Source of the DNA: a virus
Length of the DNA: 24,217 bases
Direction: 5' to 3' (one strand)
Virus record (IMG/VR): IMGVR_UViG_3300010354_000637
Span: 1-24,217 of that record
Of the stretch, positions 2,314 through 12,623 are shown piece after piece. Below the pieces are notes generated by a model, which was given only the letters and a program-made list of their open reading frames with translations, did not search any database and had not been told where the DNA came from. Position 1 is the first letter of the stretch, and each line of letters opens with the position of its first letter. A program made the position numbers and the translations under genes.

Positions 2314-3727
2314 ACTTGTTTTCAATGGTCTTCCCATAAGAGTCTCGTATCAATGTCAAAAAAGTAAATGATTGCCTATTCTTAGGAGAAAAAGCATGAT
2401 TAACTTCTTTAATTAAATATACACCACTGTGAGTTTCATCATAAGGTGCTTGTGTTCTATTTGCTGATGGTATTTGATTAGGAACTTTTATTTCTATTTT
2501 ATCTCCAACCATTAAAGAAGGATTCCCTGGAATTTTTATCTTAACCACTTGATTCATCAAAGAATTTATTCTAGATATTGATTGAGAAATATAATATTTT
2601 TTAAAGTCTTGGAATGGAGCAGAAGAAGTGGAAGAAACTCCATTTCTATCTTTAGATTCGGCAGAAGCTATTCCAGATTCATTGTACCATGTTTCATGGT
2701 CCATCACTGCACTCATAATTCTAGTAGGATACTTTGACAATTCTTTTTGACCGTGTGGTAATTTTTCTTGCTTCCCTAAATGAGCCATATTGTCATAACT
2801 ATTGGCAAGAGAATATGAATATTCTTCATAAGAACCCGTGCTTGCATTATAGTAACATATTAAAGAAGAGAATGCTCCTGTTCTTAATTTTGTCATTATA
2901 TCTATCTCATCAACATAATCAATGTCTAATATTTTATTAGAGTTTGGTCCACCAAGATCTACATTCTCTTGTACATAAGTTCCTACTGGAAGAGAACCAT
3001 TAAATTTATTAGTAGATGAACATAAGCTATCGATAGATCTATAATTAAATCCTTTTTTGTTTTCATAAAATAAAAAGCCACCAGTACCAGTTGCTTTATC
3101 AGCAGAAGAATCTACAGAATCTAATAAGGATGTTGCAGATAATTTTTCTCCATTAGTTTTTTTCGTATTGTTATTTGATAAAGTATCTGCACTATCTTTA
3201 TGTACAGATTTAATCTGCATAGAATTTATAATAGTAAACGGAGTTTTTTTACCTGGATTGAATTTCATATTAAATTTTGTTTGGTCATAAAAAAATTCTT
3301 TTTCTGTCTTCAAATCATTTTTTAAAATACTCTCAACAATGGTCTCTGCTTTTCCACTCAATGTTTTTGGGATTCGTATTCCCTCATTAACTAATGCTTC
3401 TAAAGATACTAAACCAATTTTATAATTTTGGAATCGATCTCCAGTAAATCTGTTATAGATTTTGTAAACTCTAAGATTATATGTGTGAGATTTTTTATAA
3501 TAGTCTGTTAATTTTATTGTAATTTTTTCAAAGCCCTGCAATTTAGATACTAAATTAAATCCAGTGTCAACCAATTCGAGGCTACCCGAAACAGTTGGAT
3601 ATAATATGTCTTCAAAATAATCAAATCTAATAACTAGATCAGAAATATTTTTGAATGTATTTGATCCTATCAATTGTATTTCAACACTATCTAATAAAAA
3701 ATCTGAAGAATATGGTAATTCTCTCAT
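2312..3727 (-). CDS. Baseplate hub protein, gp27-like (cyanophage VrlC-type)
   Basis: A 471-residue protein in the late tail operon. Its ATG overlaps the stop of the SleB-type gene as ATGA (3724-3727), which points to translational coupling. The start MRELPYSSDFLLDSVEIQL and the early beta-rich part (residues about 20-130) look like the tail-hub fold that pairs with a gp5-type OB protein. In cyanophages a gene annotated VrlC often occupies this slot. The C-terminal part (residues about 390-465) is also beta-rich (VVKIKIPGNPSLMVGDKIEIK, GVYLIKEVNHAFSP), like the hub/tube domains that contact gp5. No catalytic motif was seen. The hub role is inferred from position directly before the gp5-like gene and from overall pattern; the gp27 relation is not proven. 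Confidence 0.6.
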   Translation of the reverse strand: MRELPYSSDFLLDSVEIQLIGSNTFKNISDLVIRFDYFEDILYPTVSGSLELVDTGFNLVSKLQGFEKITIKLTDYYKKSHTYNLRVYKIYNRFTGDRFQNYKIGLVSLEALVNEGIRIPKTLSGKAETIVESILKNDLKTEKEFFYDQTKFNMKFNPGKKTPFTIINSMQIKSVHKDSADTLSNNNTKKTNGEKLSATSLLDSVDSSADKATGTGGFLFYENKKGFNYRSIDSLCSSTNKFNGSLPVGTYVQENVDLGGPNSNKILDIDYVDEIDIMTKLRTGAFSSLICYYNASTGSYEEYSYSLANSYDNMAHLGKQEKLPHGQKELSKYPTRIMSAVMDHETWYNESGIASAESKDRNGVSSTSSAPFQDFKKYYISQSISRINSLMNQVVKIKIPGNPSLMVGDKIEIKVPNQIPSANRTQAPYDETHSGVYLIKEVNHAFSPKNRQSFTFLTLIRDSYGKTIENK

Positions 3728-6279
3728 GCTAAACCATCTCTTAAATATAATCCACTACTATTTAATATATTTACACTGGGACCAAGTGTATCAACCTGAC
3801 GACTAACAGTAGATGCTGTTTTTGATTGGGTTCCTCCTTGTGGTAAACCCAAAGCAATTATATTAGAAGAAGGAGAAGACTCGCTTTGTTGTAAAGGATT
3901 TAAACTTTGTGGTGTAGGAGGAGCAAATGATAACTGATTATTAGAATCTGGCTTACTAATAGATTCTGTTTGCATATATTGTTCAAACGCTTGCAATATT
4001 TTTGGTCCCTGAACAGTATTAGAATTCATATTAATTTTTTCATTCTTTGAATTATAGAAATCAAATCCCATAGTAGTTTTATAAGCCTGTACTTTACCAT
4101 AACCAGGAACATTAAAATATTTTTTCACATGAGGTTGAATAACCGTATCATAATTAGTAAATTGTTGACCAAGATCAACTGGAGCTACTGGAGCAGTAGG
4201 TGTTTGTTGTACTGGAGCTAAAGATCCAACTTGAGTTCCTATAGGGAAAACTCTTTGTAGAAATTTATGTTTATTTCCAGTAGAAGCAGTTGGCAAAGGT
4301 GCCCCAGATATATGATCAGTGAATGGTATGCTGTCAGCAATTGTTGGATTGTAATAAGTTTCAGATAAAGCTAATGCATTAGCTTCTGCTTCCGATTTCC
4401 CAGACGCTATAGCATTTTGTTTTATTTGAGCTGGATCTAATCCCCCTCCTCTAATACCAGCGTTTAAAGAAGTAAGAGCTTGTTCTTTGGTAATACCAGG
4501 AAGTTTTGGTATTGATTGGCTATATTGACCATCAGCCATTAAAATATCACGTATAGTAACCTCAGATGCTTTTTTCCCAGTAATACCCCATGCTTCTGGA
4601 GTTACTATTCCTTGTTTTATTTGCCTTTGTCTATTCAAAATAGAATTTAAAACGTGAGCAGTTCCTTCTTGTGAAGTTCCCGCCTCAGCATTTAACATTT
4701 TACCTAATAAAATTGTGTCTTCTTGACTCATTCCTTGTAGACTAACTGGAGATAAATCAGGATTGCCACCTGGAGGTGGGGGAGGATTATTAGGAATTTC
4801 ATCAACTTTTTTACCAAAGCTTTCTAAAAGTTTTGAAAATCCTTCAGTAAGTCTAGCTATAATATCTTTCTTCCCATAAGAATCTTCACGTTCTGCTGTA
4901 GGTTTTTTTATTCCAGCCTTAGCTTTTTTAGTTATACTAGATGGCAACCCAAATACATCAGCAATAGGTCTTGATATTTTTTCTATTTCGGGGGAAATAT
5001 TTTCACCAGAAGAACCCATTCTTTTCAATACTTCTGTAGTGGTAGCTAAAATAGTTCCTCCAGTAGCCATCATAGGAATACTCATGGTATCCATTAATGT
5101 TTGTGTCATCTTAGAATTTGCAGTGGTTCCTCCTCCAGCAATTCCAGTCATATTAGTGATACCAAATCCAAACTTACCACCAATAGAAGAATGTCTAGTT
5201 CCAGTTTCGTATGGTTTTGGTCTTGTTATACCATCAACTGCACTTGCTTTGCCTCTAGTATAGTTATTATCTAATGGAATCACAGCTTCATTACCATGTA
5301 ATTCAGCAAGATACCCAGTGTTAGGGCCAGAAAATATTCCACCTCTTTCTGCTTTTGGATAACCATATGCCTCCATATGTTCCATTTCAGATTTTTGTGC
5401 AGACTGAACAGAAATATTTTGAACATTAGTTATTGCTGTAGTCGGCGTTATACTTTGATTTGTTTGAGATTCATTAATTTGTGTTGTAGTATTATCAGGA
5501 ACTTCAGATGCTGAAGTATCTTTAATAGCTTCTAATCTATTTTCTTGCTGAATATCTTTTGCTTTATCTATAGATTGTTTTTGAAATTGGGTTTGATTAT
5601 TAATTGCATCAACTAATCTATCTAATTTATCTTCTATTATATTATTTCTAGTTTTCAGTTGTTCTGCGATATCACTTTGAGCAACAGATGCTCTCATAAT
5701 TCCAGCACTTACTTCATTATTATTTTCAGCTATTTTCTCTGCTGTTTTATTCAGACTATCTATGAGTACATTAAATGTATTAAATAGTTCTTCCTTCGAT
5801 ATCCTTTTGCTTCTTCCAGTAGTAGCTTTTTTAATTTTCTTTGCTGTACTTGGAATCTTTTTACTTTTAGGAATAACATTAGATGAATCAGTAGTATAAT
5901 CAAATAATTTTCTAAAGCTTTTAGATTTTTTACGATCAACTTCAACATCCACAAATTTTCTTTTAAGTAAAGCACCAATCGCTTTTGGATTATTTCTAAT
6001 TCTCTTTGCTAGCTTGACATTGTGTACAATCTTTTTTACTTTATCAAGTTTTTGTCCTAATGCTTCGCCACCAAATTCATGTCTTAATGCTTTTTTAAAA
6101 AAGTGTCCTTTCTTTATTCCCAGTTCTTCTAGCGTCGTTCCTTCTTCTAGTGCTTTCTTCTCAGCATACTCTCTTTCATCTTCGGCTAACTGTCTAGCAA
6201 CAAGAACTTTATGTATTACTTTACCAACAGGATTTACATAACCCCTAGTATCCGTAGCTGTTTCTAATCCAGCGGCCAT
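3724..6279 (-). CDS. Large tail protein with SleB-like cell-wall hydrolase domain
   Basis: An 851-residue protein. The basic N-terminal 160 residues are followed by helix-rich sequence (about 165-255). Residues 311-336 carry GGIFSGPNTGY ... LHGNEAVIPL, a motif seen in phage tape-measure-type proteins and found twice in the upstream 1561-residue protein. Residues about 517-675 resemble the SleB/Hydrolase_2 family: KMLNAEAGTSQEG, then AHVLNSILNR, with E532 the likely catalytic acid, and later SIPFTDHISG. A proline run (499-503) separates it from the preceding part. The start ATG has a good ribosome binding site, AAGAGGT, 7 nt upstream. It lies 24 nt after the 1561-residue gene. Likely role: a tail-carried lysin that opens peptidoglycan at injection, or a second tape-measure-like component. 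The domain call is from motif pattern; the virion location is inferred from the operon. Confidence 0.7.
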   Translation of the reverse strand: MAAGLETATDTRGYVNPVGKVIHKVLVARQLAEDEREYAEKKALEEGTTLEELGIKKGHFFKKALRHEFGGEALGQKLDKVKKIVHNVKLAKRIRNNPKAIGALLKRKFVDVEVDRKKSKSFRKLFDYTTDSSNVIPKSKKIPSTAKKIKKATTGRSKRISKEELFNTFNVLIDSLNKTAEKIAENNNEVSAGIMRASVAQSDIAEQLKTRNNIIEDKLDRLVDAINNQTQFQKQSIDKAKDIQQENRLEAIKDTSASEVPDNTTTQINESQTNQSITPTTAITNVQNISVQSAQKSEMEHMEAYGYPKAERGGIFSGPNTGYLAELHGNEAVIPLDNNYTRGKASAVDGITRPKPYETGTRHSSIGGKFGFGITNMTGIAGGGTTANSKMTQTLMDTMSIPMMATGGTILATTTEVLKRMGSSGENISPEIEKISRPIADVFGLPSSITKKAKAGIKKPTAEREDSYGKKDIIARLTEGFSKLLESFGKKVDEIPNNPPPPPGGNPDLSPVSLQGMSQEDTILLGKMLNAEAGTSQEGTAHVLNSILNRQRQIKQGIVTPEAWGITGKKASEVTIRDILMADGQYSQSIPKLPGITKEQALTSLNAGIRGGGLDPAQIKQNAIASGKSEAEANALALSETYYNPTIADSIPFTDHISGAPLPTASTGNKHKFLQRVFPIGTQVGSLAPVQQTPTAPVAPVDLGQQFTNYDTVIQPHVKKYFNVPGYGKVQAYKTTMGFDFYNSKNEKINMNSNTVQGPKILQAFEQYMQTESISKPDSNNQLSFAPPTPQSLNPLQQSESSPSSNIIALGLPQGGTQSKTASTVSRQVDTLGPSVNILNSSGLYLRDGLA

Positions 6280-6300: not shown

Positions 6301-6308
6301 TATTTAGT
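6301..6308 (-). promoter_or_regulatory. Possible weak late promoter (ACTAAATA)
   Basis: The minus strand reads ACTAAATA, overlapping the TAA stop (6304-6306) of the 1561-residue gene and 22 nt before the next ATG. It departs from consensus in the first bases. Listed because the same stop-codon placement occurs at 2306-2313 and 11907-11914. Confidence 0.25.
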
Positions 6309-9300
6309 TTCTACCAAGACGTTGTATATAAAGTTGTCTAGTGCTAGACGGCAATTCAGATTCTGATATCCATCTTCCAGGCATCTCTTCTCTAAACACT
6401 GCAGACACTGTTCCATTCATCACTGGAGCAGTTGGTTGATTCACGATTAAAAATTTAGTATCACTATCTTTATCCGATCCCTGAATAGATTCAAATCTCG
6501 GATTGGATGAAGGAGGAGAAATATTTTTATTAAATTCACCTCCTTGGTAAATTCCTTCGGATATATGGGTAGCAAGTTCATTAAACTTCGATGATGCAGT
6601 AAAGTTTTTACCATGTTCTTTTTCCCAAGCTACCATAGATCCCATCTCAACTAATGTCGCAGGAGATAATCCAGCTCTATTAATTGTAGCATTACTTTGA
6701 GTGTCAGTTGGTCCTAAATTACCAAGTTTAGGATTTGATTTTTGAAACATTGCAAGTCGTCGTTGAATTGGAGAAGCTAAAGAAGCATCTGCTCTATCTC
6801 CAGCTCCAATCCTAGTTAGAAATCCTGTTCCTCCTTGCCCAACTGCAGCATCAAAATGTAAAGGAACTACTCTCACTCCCTTACTTGCTTGAGAAGTAAT
6901 AAAATTATCGTAGTCTTGATAGTTTCCAAATTCTTCTGGTGTTATTATTCTAACTCGCAATCCTTTTGCTTCAAGTTTTGATTTTACTACCGATGCAGCA
7001 CTATCTTGGTGTTGTCTTTCTCTTCCAGCAGCACCTGTAGCAGAAGCATTTTTAAAAGTATTGCCTCCACGAGTATCAGGAATTTTATTTTCATTTCCTG
7101 GTTTAACGTGATCTAAAGGTATAATTACATCATAATTGCCAGATGGTTGTTGAGAACGTTGAGCCTGTTGCTGTTGATATGCTTGCTGTCTTGCTTTTTC
7201 AATCGAACCTTCAGGTCCTTTGCGAAGTTCTTTTAAAACATAGTCTCCAATTTGTGTTGCTTTAGGGTGGGGTGTATTTCTTGTTCCCTTTTGGAAAAAA
7301 TCTAAACTTGTATGGGCTCCAGTACCACTACCAACTTCCCTTCTTGTAGCTGGATTATTAAATTCTTCTCTTGTTGCCATTCTACCAAGATTTTGACCAA
7401 CAGATACTTTATCTCCTTGTTTGACTTTGATTTCTCCTTTAGGAAAATGAGCGTATAGCATATCAACTTCAGAACCATCTACTGGATTTGTTGATCTTAT
7501 TACTATATAATTTCCATAACCTGTTTGTGATTGTTCATTATATTGATGACCAATTTCAATAACTTCTCCCGAAAAAATAGCTCTATTTTGTGTTCCTTTT
7601 AATGTAAAATCAATACCTGGCTGCCTATCATCTTGACTGCCTCTAAGTAAAACAAATGGTTCTGCTCCAACTTCTCCTGGAGTACCAGGAGGTAGTAAAG
7701 GGTTTCTAAAATTTAAAAGTTTAATTTTAAACTTTTCCAAAACATCTAAAAATTTTCCAGATGGATCTATCATTTTGTAGAGTCTTTCAGAAAACATATC
7801 AGCATTTGAAGTTTCTAAAAGTTCTTTTTCAATTCCAGTCAATTCTTCATCAGCTAATTTAGTTTTTACATTTTTCATCGCAGAAGATAATGAAGATATA
7901 TTACCTCCTATAGGAGCACTAACAGATACATTTGGCACACCATATATTTTCGCTAATGGAGAAATCGCTTGCTTTATAGTAGGCGCAATAGAATTTGCAA
8001 CAGGTCCAGCTTTTTGTATATAATTTGAAGTAGCAGCTAATAACACACCCCCAATTGGATCGACTGGAGTGATATTATCTTTAGGAATAACTGCTTCAGT
8101 TCCATGAAGCATAGCTGTTCCAGGTTTAGTAAGTCCTCCTCGTTCATAATCTCCATCAGTTACTCCCAAAGCATCAGCAAAAAATGCTGCTATATGTTCA
8201 TCTCCTTTTCCAGTAGTAATAGCTCCAAGATTAGACTCAATATGTTTTGTATATGCAGGAGTATCAATGTCTCTCAACACATCGACCGCAGCAAATCCCC
8301 ACCCAGCAACTGGAATAGCACTACCAAAAGATAAGAACCCTCCTTTAATGTCGCCCATAGCCATACGAGCAAGACCTTCTCCGAGACCATAAACGGTAGA
8401 AACTCCAGGTATTAATTTACCAGCTAGTTTAACAGATAGTTTTTCTGCACCTTCTTTTCCTATTTTTTTAACTAATGCTTCTTGAACTTTTTTGCTTTTT
8501 AATATTTTAATTAAAATATTATCTCCACCAGTAGAAAATGCTTTGGCAGCTGGTTTGTCAGCACCTTGAGTAACCGCCCTAGAAACTCCAGGTAATGCTA
8601 TGTGTTCCCACCCCTTTGCTACTGCTCTGTTAGTTGCAGCAGTTGCAATCTTAGGAGCAAATCTATTACCTATACTTGTTAATGCTTTAGAAGATATTTT
8701 AGATGCTATTCGTGAAGGTAAGGTTACTATTTTATTAACTTTACCAAGTAAGTTTACTAATCTTTTTGGTAAAAATCCTCTTATCATTTTCCATAGATAC
8801 TTACCAACATTTGTCTGGAAAAATTTCCTGATTTTACTAATCATTCCTGGACCAGATTTTGATGAATCTTTTCTAGTATCAAACGGAGTTTCTAAGCCTG
8901 CAGATTTTCTAATTCTTTCTAATCCAGATTCACTACGTCCCAATTGTTGTTTATCATATAAATCTTTAGCAATACTATTTTGTCTGACAAATGCATCAGT
9001 TAATGCATCTATTTTATGTGCTAAAACTTCATCTTGTTCTTCAACTTTCTGTAAAGTAACAAATGATATGTCTACAATATTTTGTAGTAATAAATTTTGA
9101 TGTTGTATATTACTATCAATAGAATTTAATTTGTTTTGTACTTCTATAATTCCTTTAGACAAAAAGTTATATATTTTTGTGTTAGTAATTCCTGTTCTCT
9201 TTTCAGATTTTTCTTTTGTTGGTATTGTTTGTTTGCCAGTTTTTTTATTAACATGTTTAGCTAATGCTTCCCTGATTCCTTCTGGAAGATCGTCTAAAGC

Positions 9301-10989
9301 ATCTGCAGGAATTTCTGACGATGGTTCATTAATAACATCATTTAATAAATCATCCAAACCTTCTGGTTCTGAATCATCCTCTTCGTCATCGTCTTCATTT
9401 TTAATATCATTCAATAGATCATCTAATCCTTCTGGTTCTTCAGAATCTTCACGAATTTCTTTTAACTTCTGCTGAAGTCTTGCATTTTCTTCTTCTTTAA
9501 ATTTATTAAGCTTTTCCTGATCTTGTTTCAGCAATTCATCAATCATGTCCATAATATCAGATGCAGTTTCGTCAAGTGCTTCTTCTGCATTTGACAGTGT
9601 TTGATCTAAAAATTCTTTTTGATCATCAACAAATTTTTCTCCAGGACTATATACAGAAGTTTGAGAAGACTCCATGTATATTTCTCTTTCAAAATCAGAA
9701 TCTATTTTAGGAATTATTAAGGTAAGCTCATCGCCAGCTCCCCATCCACTTGGAGTTAATTCTCTAATCTTATCAATAATTTTTTTTCTATGGTCATGGA
9801 TTTCTTTAAATGTTAATCCTAAAGTATCTTGAAGCCAATCTAATACTTCTGTTTGCTTTGCTCCTTTAGGGAATGGAGATTTACCAGCAAAGTATACTGC
9901 GTGATCTAATACAGATTCAAATTCCAATTCCCAAACTGCAGATTGACCTTGAATGAATCTTGCTGGAGGAAGATTAACATCATTGAGAGGAATTACTGCC
10001 TCAGTTCCATGTAATATTACTGGATATCCAGATTCGGGACCAGAGAATACTCCACCTTCCGATGCTTGAGGAATAGTTCCTGGGAATCGATATTTTTTAT
10101 TAATAGAAGAAACAATTCCAGAAGTTTTAGACGCAATAGATGTTTTAGGTACAATAGTTCGTATCTTTTTAGGATTTTTTGTATTAATTTTTAGTGCTGT
10201 ATCTAATGCATTATACAAAAGTGAAATAATATTTTTTTCATTTCCAGCAGGAAGCAAAGATATCTTATGTAATTCATCAAAATATAGTGTTTCTTTTTTT
10301 TCGTCTCCTTCAATATCAGCATAGTCTGTAAACACAATCGTCGGATCTGCACCAACAAGTTTGCATATTATTTTAACAGTATTTCGTAAGATTCTATTGT
10401 ACGTTTTATACGATTTTGTATTTTCAAATGAGTGTGCTATTAATCCTAAAGCACCTTGACTAGGATCACTATTACTACCAAATATTGCTTCGTAATATGC
10501 AGCGCCAGATTTTTTTAATGCTTGTCCATAATCAAGAATCTTAACTTGATAATCATTAGTAATGAAAATATTTCCTGCATGAAGATCTCTATGAGCAATA
10601 TTTTTCCTGTGTAATGCCCCAACAGATTCTACAATCTTTCTAAAAATATAGTCAGCAAAAACAGGATCTTCTTTTATTTTTGATAGGTTATTCCATAAAG
10701 TATCTCCGTCAAACTTTTGAATAGCAGCAAATCCTTTTCCACTACCAAGTAGTTTAGGAGCAACTCCAATACCACTTGTTTGTTGTAGCATTTGTATCTC
10801 ATTCTCAAGAGCTTTCAATCCTTTAGAATGAGATACTTTTACTGCACTACCTTTAGTAGAATAGACTGTTCCAAAAGCACCTTGCCCCAATTTTTTATCA
10901 CCAAACATGCTAAACGCAGTGTTGTAGCCCAATAGTTTTCCAACTAATCTTATTCTTTTCGATAGTTTAAACTGGTTGGAGCTTTTCAT
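6304..10989 (-). CDS. Tape-measure-like tail protein with N-terminal protein kinase, degenerate M23 and C-terminal Amidase_3-like domains
   Basis: 1561 residues, the largest gene here. Residues 30-270 form a protein-kinase-like domain: glycine loop GQGAFGTVY (35-43), K51 in AVKV, E62 or E64 in the next helix, catalytic loop HRDLHAGN (133-140) and DYG (153-155). Residues 311-336 and 949-971 carry the LHGTEAVIP motif shared with the 851-residue neighbour. Residues 460-700 are acidic and coiled-coil-like, with a duplicated EPEGLDDLLND. A hydrophobic Gly/Ala-rich stretch spans 855-905. Residues 1106-1235 resemble an M23 peptidase fold but two metal-ligand His positions are Q1123 and S1228. Residues 1286-1485 resemble Amidase_3, with H1294, E1324, H1378 (PLHFDA) and E1448 (LVEMG). 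The start overlaps the -1 extension of the gp26-type gene (ATGA) and follows the chaperone gene, as tape measures do. Tape-measure role is inferred. Confidence 0.75.
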   Translation of the reverse strand: MKSSNQFKLSKRIRLVGKLLGYNTAFSMFGDKKLGQGAFGTVYSTKGSAVKVSHSKGLKALENEIQMLQQTSGIGVAPKLLGSGKGFAAIQKFDGDTLWNNLSKIKEDPVFADYIFRKIVESVGALHRKNIAHRDLHAGNIFITNDYQVKILDYGQALKKSGAAYYEAIFGSNSDPSQGALGLIAHSFENTKSYKTYNRILRNTVKIICKLVGADPTIVFTDYADIEGDEKKETLYFDELHKISLLPAGNEKNIISLLYNALDTALKINTKNPKKIRTIVPKTSIASKTSGIVSSINKKYRFPGTIPQASEGGVFSGPESGYPVILHGTEAVIPLNDVNLPPARFIQGQSAVWELEFESVLDHAVYFAGKSPFPKGAKQTEVLDWLQDTLGLTFKEIHDHRKKIIDKIRELTPSGWGAGDELTLIIPKIDSDFEREIYMESSQTSVYSPGEKFVDDQKEFLDQTLSNAEEALDETASDIMDMIDELLKQDQEKLNKFKEEENARLQQKLKEIREDSEEPEGLDDLLNDIKNEDDDEEDDSEPEGLDDLLNDVINEPSSEIPADALDDLPEGIREALAKHVNKKTGKQTIPTKEKSEKRTGITNTKIYNFLSKGIIEVQNKLNSIDSNIQHQNLLLQNIVDISFVTLQKVEEQDEVLAHKIDALTDAFVRQNSIAKDLYDKQQLGRSESGLERIRKSAGLETPFDTRKDSSKSGPGMISKIRKFFQTNVGKYLWKMIRGFLPKRLVNLLGKVNKIVTLPSRIASKISSKALTSIGNRFAPKIATAATNRAVAKGWEHIALPGVSRAVTQGADKPAAKAFSTGGDNILIKILKSKKVQEALVKKIGKEGAEKLSVKLAGKLIPGVSTVYGLGEGLARMAMGDIKGGFLSFGSAIPVAGWGFAAVDVLRDIDTPAYTKHIESNLGAITTGKGDEHIAAFFADALGVTDGDYERGGLTKPGTAMLHGTEAVIPKDNITPVDPIGGVLLAATSNYIQKAGPVANSIAPTIKQAISPLAKIYGVPNVSVSAPIGGNISSLSSAMKNVKTKLADEELTGIEKELLETSNADMFSERLYKMIDPSGKFLDVLEKFKIKLLNFRNPLLPPGTPGEVGAEPFVLLRGSQDDRQPGIDFTLKGTQNRAIFSGEVIEIGHQYNEQSQTGYGNYIVIRSTNPVDGSEVDMLYAHFPKGEIKVKQGDKVSVGQNLGRMATREEFNNPATRREVGSGTGAHTSLDFFQKGTRNTPHPKATQIGDYVLKELRKGPEGSIEKARQQAYQQQQAQRSQQPSGNYDVIIPLDHVKPGNENKIPDTRGGNTFKNASATGAAGRERQHQDSAASVVKSKLEAKGLRVRIITPEEFGNYQDYDNFITSQASKGVRVVPLHFDAAVGQGGTGFLTRIGAGDRADASLASPIQRRLAMFQKSNPKLGNLGPTDTQSNATINRAGLSPATLVEMGSMVAWEKEHGKNFTASSKFNELATHISEGIYQGGEFNKNISPPSSNPRFESIQGSDKDSDTKFLIVNQPTAPVMNGTVSAVFREEMPGRWISESELPSSTRQLYIQRLGRN
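9334..9444 (-). repeat. Tandem duplication encoding SEPEGLDDLLND
   Basis: Two copies, 9403-9444 and 9334-9375, encode EPEGLDDLLND twice, 69 nt apart in phase, joined by a run of Asp/Glu. Both lie in the acidic linker (residues 516-552) of the 1561-residue protein. Confidence 0.8.
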
Positions 10990-11174
10990 TTGTTTTTATT
11001 TGCTTCCCGTTTGGCTTCTTGTTCTTGTAAATATTGTTTCAATAAAGCAATATAAACTTCTCTTTCCCAAGGTATTAAATTTTCAACTTCACTTAAAGAG
11101 TACTTATGATATTGTAACAAAGCAAAATTAGTTTTGTAATACCCCTCCAAACTATTTTGGAAGAGTGCTATACG
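10986..11174 (-). CDS. -1 frame extension of the gp26-type protein (frameshift product of 298 residues)
   Basis: In the -1 frame after the slippery site, 62 codons run to TGA at 10988-10986. The peptide starts RIALFQNSLEGYYKTNFALL, continues QYHKYSLSEVENLIPWEREV, and ends with a Lys/Glu-rich helix. It has no ATG and no start codon with a ribosome binding site; the only near candidate is a TTG at about 11150. Its stop overlaps the tape-measure-like start as ATGA, as expected for a translated, coupled reading frame. The region is otherwise a gene-less gap of 178 nt in a very compact operon. Fusion to residues 1-236 of the gp26-type protein would give 298 residues. Composition (aromatic and charged, helix-like, with an EREVY core) looks like real protein. 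This is the G/GT arrangement of lambda-type tails; translation itself has not been shown. Confidence 0.8.
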   Translation of the reverse strand, partial: RIALFQNSLEGYYKTNFALLQYHKYSLSEVENLIPWEREVYIALLKQYLQEQEAKREANKNK

Positions 11175-11180
11175 AAAAAA
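11141..11180 (-). promoter_or_regulatory. Programmed -1 ribosomal frameshift site with downstream hairpin
   Basis: On the minus strand, T TTT TTC at 11180-11174 is in the zero frame (codons AAT TTT TTC GTA TAG) and fits the X XXY YYZ rule. A 7-nt spacer (GTATAGC) follows. The hairpin is ACTCTTCCAAA (11166-11156), loop ATAG, then TTTGGAGGGGT (11151-11141): 11 pairs, two of them G-U. The zero-frame stop lies 3 nt after the heptamer. Confidence 0.8.
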
Positions 11181-11881
11181 TTTTGTAACCCCTCTATAGT
11201 ATACTTTGATGTGTTACCTGTTAATGGATTAACAACTTCAAAATCATGCTTTAATCTAGGCATAGTATCATAGAACTTTTGAATAGCTTCGAACTGTTGT
11301 ACAGTGAGAGTATCTAAAAATTCCTTGAACTCTTTTTTAGATGTTGTACTAGAATCATAAACACTTTCCGAATCAAATATTTGTTCTATGTGTTCAGAAA
11401 TAAAATCAAATACTTCTGTTGTTTTTAAATCTTTACCCAAAAATTCAGATTCTATAAACCTTTGCATACTTGGATATTTCATAATCATCCCAGTATTTTC
11501 AGTCAGCATGATCTTATTTGAATGTCCTTCTGGTTTATAAACTTCAACATCATTTATATTAATAGCCACATCAACTTGAGTTTCATTATCATCTTGACAA
11601 GTCACTTTCATAGAAATAATCTCGCCAACAGATGCAGCACGAATCTTCAGAAAAATATATTCCAGATCAAAAGAAGGCAAATCATCTACTTTGATTCTAG
11701 ATAGTACACAATTTTTTATTAGATCTTTCACTGCACTTGTTATTTGCTTATCATCTTCCGACTCTAAAGCAAGTAAAAGAATCTTTTCTTCTTTAACTAA
11801 GAATGGTCTGTATTTAATATCTTTCCCAGTTGAAGGTAATTTCAATTCAAGAGAAGGAACTGCAATTTTAGGTAAAGCCAT
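11168..11881 (-). CDS. gp26: gp26/gp51-type baseplate hub assembly protein (tail chaperone, zero-frame product)
   Basis: A 237-residue protein ending at TAG 11170-11168. The N-terminal block YRPFLVKEEKILLLALES with following helices is typical of the T4 baseplate family that includes gp26 and gp51, which act in hub assembly. Residues about 45-70 carry DLIKNCVLSRIKVDDLP, and the C terminus has YTIEGLQNFFV. The start ATG at 11881 has no clear Shine-Dalgarno site; a late promoter lies 26 nt upstream. The gene sits between a gp54-like tube gene and the tape-measure-like gene, the slot of tail assembly chaperones. Its last codons contain a slippery heptamer (see 11141-11180), so a longer fusion is likely also made. 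T4 gp26 is about 208 residues, so the size fits. The family call is strong; the chaperone role is inferred. Confidence 0.8.
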   Translation of the reverse strand: MALPKIAVPSLELKLPSTGKDIKYRPFLVKEEKILLLALESEDDKQITSAVKDLIKNCVLSRIKVDDLPSFDLEYIFLKIRAASVGEIISMKVTCQDDNETQVDVAININDVEVYKPEGHSNKIMLTENTGMIMKYPSMQRFIESEFLGKDLKTTEVFDFISEHIEQIFDSESVYDSSTTSKKEFKEFLDTLTVQQFEAIQKFYDTMPRLKHDFEVVNPLTGNTSKYTIEGLQNFFV

Positions 11882-11906: not shown

Positions 11907-11914
11907 TATTTATC
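11907..11914 (-). promoter_or_regulatory. T4-type late promoter (GATAAATA)
   Basis: The minus strand reads GATAAATA, 26 nt before the ATG of the gp26-type gene at 11881. It overlaps the TAA stop (11910-11912) of the gp54-like gene. Confidence 0.55.
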
Positions 11915-12623
11915 CAGTATACTTACCACTAATATTGTTGTAGATAATCGTATGTTTTCTGTAATAAAAATTGGCAGTAACTTTAGTTATTTGAGATGTG
12001 CCATACGATAAAGGAACAGCATCAATTGAATATGGATAGCAATCTTGTAATAAGTATGAAATAGGTGCTCTACTATTAGGGGCACTCCTACCTCTCTCAG
12101 TTTTAGTAATTTTAACGTCACAAAGATACTCAGATGGAAATTTTAATCTAGTTGTTCTGTCTATAGGATTAGCTCTTTTGGATTTTAAAGATTCTAAATT
12201 AAGTGTTTTATCAGAAATAACAGAATCAAGGCTAGTTCCTTCTCCATATATGTAATCATACCAGGCTGTCAAAAATTTTAATGGGGTCATGTTAGCATCG
12301 CTCATCCACCCAAGAGAAAAATCACTATACAATTTTGTGTGAGGATAACTTACAGCACCTTCACCTAAAACAACTCCAGTTACTTGTCCAGTTGCAGATT
12401 GTATGTTAGGTAATTGTGCCTCATCACATAAATGTTGAATTAAAAATCCCGCTTTTGATGGACTATCAGTTGAAGAAGGATCGGATCCCAATACTTTAAT
12501 CAGCCAAGACTTTAAATCATTCCTATTCCCAAAATTAAATTCTACATCATATCCATTTGTCATGGACATGCCACCAGCTTGAGATATAGCTGAAATAAAA
12601 TTACTTATTGATGCTGGTGCCAC
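11910..12623 (-). CDS. gp54: gp54-like baseplate tail-tube initiator protein
   Basis: A 237-residue protein with the tail-tube fold pattern. The N terminus is MAPASISNFISAISQAGG, the middle has LCDEAQLPNIQSATGQVTG (as in tube proteins, the loop before the strand that forms the ring), and the C-terminal half has SYLLQDCYPYSIDAVPLSYG followed by ITKVTANFYYRKH, as in T4 gp54 and gp19. gp54 caps the baseplate and starts tube polymerisation, next to gp48. The sheath and main tube genes are not here, and gp48 is encoded just across the divergent promoter, so gp54 is preferred over gp19; T4 gp54 is longer (about 320 residues). It is the first gene of the minus-strand late operon. Transcription probably starts from the late promoter at 12651-12658. 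Confidence 0.7.
   Translation of the reverse strand: MAPASISNFISAISQAGGMSMTNGYDVEFNFGNRNDLKSWLIKVLGSDPSSTDSPSKAGFLIQHLCDEAQLPNIQSATGQVTGVVLGEGAVSYPHTKLYSDFSLGWMSDANMTPLKFLTAWYDYIYGEGTSLDSVISDKTLNLESLKSKRANPIDRTTRLKFPSEYLCDVKITKTERGRSAPNSRAPISYLLQDCYPYSIDAVPLSYGTSQITKVTANFYYRKHTIIYNNISGKYTG

Follow-up and report, generated by a model that had tools for sequence, protein, structure and literature searches.

A conserved -1 frameshift signal at the end of gp26 in a T4-like cyanophage record points to short and long forms of a probable tail assembly chaperone

Running past the stop codon of a gp26-type gene, the AT-rich IMG/VR virus record IMGVR_UViG_3300010354_000637 (24,217 bases, all of which were analysed and are here called the window) holds an open frame in the -1 register that contains no ATG. 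How would such a frame be translated, and what would its product do? The reading frames seen in the window include those of a tail tube protein, gp26, a PhoH-like protein, a ThyX-like protein and PsbA (the last three recognized by eye), and because of this gene content we assign the window to a T4-like cyanophage. We conclude with high confidence that a signal for programmed -1 ribosomal frameshifting is built into the gp26 gene; it would yield a 237-aa form and a predicted 298-aa form that would act like the lambda gpG/gpGT chaperones for the tape measure.

All features of the locus lie on the minus strand. The zero frame of the gp26-type gene (11168..11881) encodes the TAC-N-like short form of 237 aa, which matches PF12322 T4_baseplate (E 5.4e-68) and phrog_150 (E 9.5e-76). 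Directly upstream of it is a tail tube gene (11910..12623; PF23849 Phage_TTP_2, E 4e-53), and the next gene downstream is a 1561-aa ORF (6304..10989) in the position where other phages hold tape-measure-like genes. At its 3' end the zero frame reads GAG GGG TTA CAA AAT TTT TTC GTA TAG, with the slippery heptamer T_TTT_TTC at 11174..11180 and the stop TAG, 3 nt past the heptamer, at 11168..11170. A 7-nt spacer (11167-11173) separates the heptamer from a candidate stimulatory hairpin (11141..11166) with a 4-nt loop and an 11-bp stem (11166-11156 with 11151-11141) that includes U-G pairs. The -1 frame extension (10986..11174), called 'gp51' elsewhere, comprises 62 codons (10989-11174) and a TGA (10988-10986) that overlaps the ATG of the next gene (10989-10987) as ATGA. 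A preliminary description of this DNA had reported the heptamer 3 nt before the stop, the spacer and hairpin, the ATG-less 62-codon frame and the ATGA overlap, all of which a reading of the sequence confirms; the product sizes that it gave, 237 and 298 residues, agree with the reading frames, the larger being a prediction.

Because the AT-rich window contains 29 copies of TTTTTTC against 19.6 expected, the heptamer alone is weak evidence, and we therefore compared homologous loci. These were drawn from five viral-contig scans, in which the ValKK3 and Cr30 queries contributed 2 loci each, and from 16 annotated phage regions. The scan queries contained the extension, and some of the search peptides lay within it, but none lay over the heptamer. 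Counting as distinct those loci that differ in sequence around the stop gave 185, which were thinned to below 85% identity to leave 67 lineages. Six Ts followed by C or T stand no more than 6 nt from the stop in 182 of the 185 distinct loci (C in 180, T in 2), and in every fully covered case among these 182 the heptamer is followed by a -1 frame of 56-66 codons. The spacing from heptamer to stop equals that of the window, 3 nt, in 177/185. Phages that bear the heptamer have hosts that include Synechococcus, Prochlorococcus, Caulobacter, Sinorhizobium, Agrobacterium, Vibrio, Aeromonas, Cronobacter and Stenotrophomonas.

The codons themselves are held fixed. All 67 lineages have TTT at the first slip codon and 65/67 have TTC at the second; counted among lineage pairs that share the amino acid, the synonymous difference at these two codons is 0.00 and 0.06, whereas the 37 codons before them average 0.53. 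This suppression is restricted to the slip codons, with other phenylalanine columns free to vary (for example, 0.50 at codon -34), and the codon ahead of them always ends in T, though its residue varies (S, D, A, N). We give these figures as contrasts rather than as a probability, because the lineages share ancestry and the statistics are not independent.

Three of the 185 loci depart from the pattern. One, the metagenome contig L028, does so because its frame breaks earlier; the heptamer region is visible further on. Another is Vibrio phage K469, whose gp26 homologue lacks the T6 heptamer and reads ACG CTT TTT GCG TAA TGATGG (2193-2230 of locus L091); its -1 extension is open and a stop-start overlap is present, so it may rely on reinitiation, or on weaker slippage at the run of five Ts. 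The third, Salmonella phage pSK20 of the Ackermannviridae, likewise has a gp26 homologue without the T6 heptamer, reading GAG ATT TTC ATT TAA (2210-2410 of locus L092), followed by an open -1 extension that is unannotated and has no ATG close to the stop. In Synechococcus phage S-H34 (2199-2250 of locus L097) the heptamer abuts the stop (GAT TTT TTC TAG) and a 10-bp hairpin follows, an arrangement that is a naturally varied form of the slip signal.

The region past the heptamer tends to be structured. In the window, the RNA from 11173 to 11134 folds at -14 kcal/mol (z -3.9), with 0/200 shuffles as stable, and across the 67 lineages the fold after the heptamer has a mean z of -1.76, where flanking controls average -0.18 and -0.29 (p < 1e-5). 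Within the window's clade of 18 sequences, 97% of stem cells are paired and two pairs show compensatory changes: 11165/11142 passes from C-G to G-C in six sequences and 11157/11150 from A-U to G-C in two. The covariation score of this stem was matched by 0/500 shuffles, and shifting the partner by 1-3 columns destroyed both pairing and covariation. Other clades have stems of unrelated sequence at the same place, among them a 14-bp stem in S-PM2 and others in P-SSM2 and S-H34. The hairpin is weak or absent in about a third of lineages (37% with z above -1), some of which may use a pseudoknot or no structure at all. The expectation that stem pairing would be conserved among relatives thus holds within the window's clade but not universally.

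Upstream of the heptamer, comparison of lineages picks out a Shine-Dalgarno (SD)-like element, GAGGGG in the window (11189..11194), as a candidate stimulator; its GAGG starts 14 nt upstream of the heptamer. In 62/67 lineages an SD core is present here, either GAGG, which mostly starts 14 nt ahead of the heptamer, or AAGG, which starts 13 nt ahead of it; control windows have one in 8% of cases. The Glu codon at this site is GAG in 62% of cases against 28% elsewhere, GAG being preferred over GAA. The element was absent from the preliminary description. In the dnaX signal of Escherichia coli, an upstream SD-like element, a slippery heptamer and a downstream hairpin are combined, and the gp26 signal has the same three-part layout; the two differ in the heptamer (A AAA AAG in dnaX, T TTT TTC here) and in the shifted product, which is longer here, not shorter.

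Beyond the zero-frame stop, most substitutions (19,362 of 27,090, over 1,406 pairs) hit the third position of -1 codons, and dN/dS is 0.067 in the -1 frame against 1.7 and 3.3 in the other two frames. Judged from this substitution pattern, the -1 frame is under strong purifying selection. The preliminary description had predicted that homologues would keep the heptamer, the open -1 frame and suppressed synonymous change, and all three proved to be retained. In an alignment across phages of cyanobacteria, alphaproteobacteria and gammaproteobacteria, conservation of the extension starts at the first residue after the slip site, and its consensus is near RIxLxHxxLExYYxxNFALMQHHKYSLTEIENMxPWERE. 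ATGs occur in it at varying places between lineages, and several lineages, the window included, have none. Taken together, the ATG-less window, the shifting ATG positions and conservation that begins at the slip site indicate that the extension needs no start codon. It matches phrog_634 (E 5.6e-25), whose label, 'baseplate hub assembly catalyst', is that of T4 gp51. Among the records that we examined, some annotate 'gp51' as a small gene of its own, with starts that vary, and others omit it; none of them joins the frames. In S-CAM1, Cronobacter phage LPCS28 and Aeromonas phage Aswh_1 the extension is unannotated and appears as an intergenic gap of 160-185 nt.

T4 itself has no such signal: its gene 26 keeps the two phenylalanines as TTC TTT, with no heptamer and no open -1 extension. 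In hhalign comparisons the family short form aligns with T4 gp26 over the whole length of gp26 (E 2.4e-17); the T4 protein lacks the -1 extension and ends just after the FF that corresponds to the slip site. T4 gp51 also aligns with the short form (E 1.3e-6) and, through 38 columns of its C-terminal part, with the -1 extension (E 2.7e-5). The window gene thus belongs with T4 gp26 and gp51 (PF12322, phrog_150/phrog_634), the short form matching gp26 and the extension the gp51 C-terminus. From these alignments it follows that in T4 each form has its own gene, 26 for the short and 51 for the long. According to a review (PMC3004832), T4 gp26 and gp51 are listed as hub assembly chaperones, with gp51 absent from the final particle and some evidence of gp26 within the hub.

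Could the extension instead be made independently of slippage? A separate small gp51 gene, with its own start codon and translated by reinitiation after the gp26 stop, is how the region is annotated in S-PM2, P-SSM2, P-HM1, Syn9, Cr30, phiM19, ValKK3 and others, and in some lineages an ATG does overlap or lie near the gp26 stop. Yet the annotated starts differ from one phage to the next and exclude conserved residues; the conservation itself sets in at the slip site, before any ATG and with the codons there under strong selection; and reinitiation leaves both the invariant heptamer and the fused T4 gp51 unexplained. As the only candidate starts in the -1 frame of the window are TTG codons, none with a ribosome binding site at the proper distance, and conservation runs from the slip site, we reject a separate gp51 start for the window and consider this explanation very unlikely overall. 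An extension with its own start in homologues had been named beforehand as evidence against frameshifting; the window and several other lineages have no ATG, but some relatives do have one near the stop (as TAATG in Vibrio phages, for example), which could allow an extra product to be translated separately in them.

A mixture of mRNAs produced by RNA polymerase slippage on the T6 run could also encode the long form, since a six-T run precedes the frame switch and transcriptional slippage on homopolymers exists in bacteria. Such slippage usually requires longer runs, whereas here the run is kept at six and then followed by C in 180/182 loci rather than lengthened; it would also need no fixed codon phase, downstream hairpin or upstream SD-like element, and we regard it as extremely improbable. 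That T runs, hairpins and short open frames arose by chance in AT-rich DNA, or that a sequencing error split one gene, gains some plausibility from how common TTTTTTC is in the window, but the same arrangement recurs in 182/185 distinct homologous loci from independent sequencing projects, with both frames constrained as coding sequence. Given this conservation we reject chance and error, which we rate as practically out of the question.

Programmed -1 frameshifting accounts for these features together. Signals of the X_XXY_YYZ class are marked by a zero-frame heptamer near a stop, a structure 5-9 nt downstream and coding selection on the -1 frame, and the gp26 site has each of these, with its structure at 7 nt. 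The data show the parts of the signal, their conservation and the selection on the -1 frame; that slippage occurs, that it involves a minority of ribosomes and that the products serve as chaperones we infer. Most ribosomes would terminate at TAG and release the 237-aa short form. The others would slip with tRNA-Phe on TTT and TTC (UUU UUC), held by the downstream hairpin and pulled by the upstream SD-like GAGG; the tRNAs would re-pair one base back, and 62 further codons would be read to give the 298-aa long form. On the model of lambda G/GT, these forms would be TAC-N and TAC-NC, tail assembly chaperones for the tape measure encoded next, and would assemble together on it and bring in subunits of the tail tube.

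The gene order (tail tube, gp26(-51), tape-measure-like ORF) is of the G/GT type, and the analogy is strengthened by this order and by T4, in which gene 26 supplies the short form and gene 51 the long one. The earlier proposal that this family is the functional match of G/GT therefore gains support, with the chaperone role itself probable by analogy. We liken gp26 to lambda gpG/gpGT and other tail chaperone frameshifts of double-stranded DNA phages (Xu, Hendrix & Duda 2004) by analogy, not by sequence similarity; compared with lambda, the short form made from gp26 is larger, at 237 aa, and the slip lies 3 nt before the stop, on the canonical U UUU UUC. An AlphaFold model built from an alignment of IMG/VR loci only (pLDDT 86.7) was compared with the PDB by Foldseek, in which, among the matches listed, the HK97 tail assembly chaperone 2ob9 had the highest probability (0.44-0.47) at an E of 1.3-1.8, which is below significance; among viral predicted structures it matched gp26 proteins broadly. 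A search of PDB sequences with the gp26 profile returned nothing credible, the best match being BRR2 helicase (E 0.05).

The 1561-aa ORF is termed tape-measure-like here from its position and from weak profile matches. Its N-terminal region is a Ser/Thr protein kinase domain (Pkinase, E 1.3e-11; HRDLHAGN...DYG), and it also contains an M23 peptidase (E 3.8e-9) and a C-terminal part that looks amidase-like by eye. Among the collected loci, the kinase region is found in L003 and L004 only (73% identity), and against the phage collection it gives weak matches to separate kinase genes. The gene that follows, an 851-aa ORF at 3724-6279 on the minus strand, is a member of phrog_10925, a family of unknown function; the true tape measure could be this ORF, either alone or alongside the 1561-aa one.

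Vladimirov, Gautam and Davidson, writing in Virology in 2022, are said to have identified the T4 genes as 26 and 51 and to have found frameshifting conserved in several T4-like groups. The core idea is prior art for T4-like tail assembly chaperones, which belong to the same gene family as the gp26 of the window (Virology 2022 566:9-15, doi 10.1016/j.virol.2021.11.003, as cited in PMC10885494 and PMC12846349). Citing that work, PMC12846349 describes poly-T slippery sites as known from the TAC-N genes of T4-like phages, and PMC10885494 states that some T4-like phages have one short and one fused long TAC gene in place of the frameshift. The preliminary description had treated such a frameshift as possibly undescribed for T4-like cyanophages; T4-like phages are in fact already covered, as these citing papers indicate, although we found no cyanophage-specific report of a gp26 frameshift in the open literature. 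The TAC genes of Vandenendeviridae and Andersonviridae, as presented in PMC12846349, likewise have a conserved -1 frameshift at a T-run ending TAC-N and a downstream ORF misannotated as a separate gene; unlike the window, they belong to other phage families and use the motif GTTTTT. What we add is comparative evidence on this scale, together with the SD-like element upstream of the heptamer.

Whether the slip signal is modular, with parts that turn over separately, is evenly balanced in our judgment. Under such a scheme, the heptamer and SD-like element would be nearly fixed across T4-like families, and the hairpin would have been rebuilt or lost several times, as the unrelated stems in the clades of the window, S-PM2, P-SSM2, P-HM1 and S-H34 suggest; outliers without the heptamer (K469 and pSK20) keep the -1 extension and may use other recoding or stop-restart.

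Since the 'gp51' of many cyanophage and related records would be a trans-frame extension without a start of its own, many of the corresponding protein entries are probably mis-started or missing. For T4, the essential gp51, a hub 'catalyst' of unknown function, would then be the counterpart of a tape-measure chaperone's long form, with gp26 as the counterpart of the short one.
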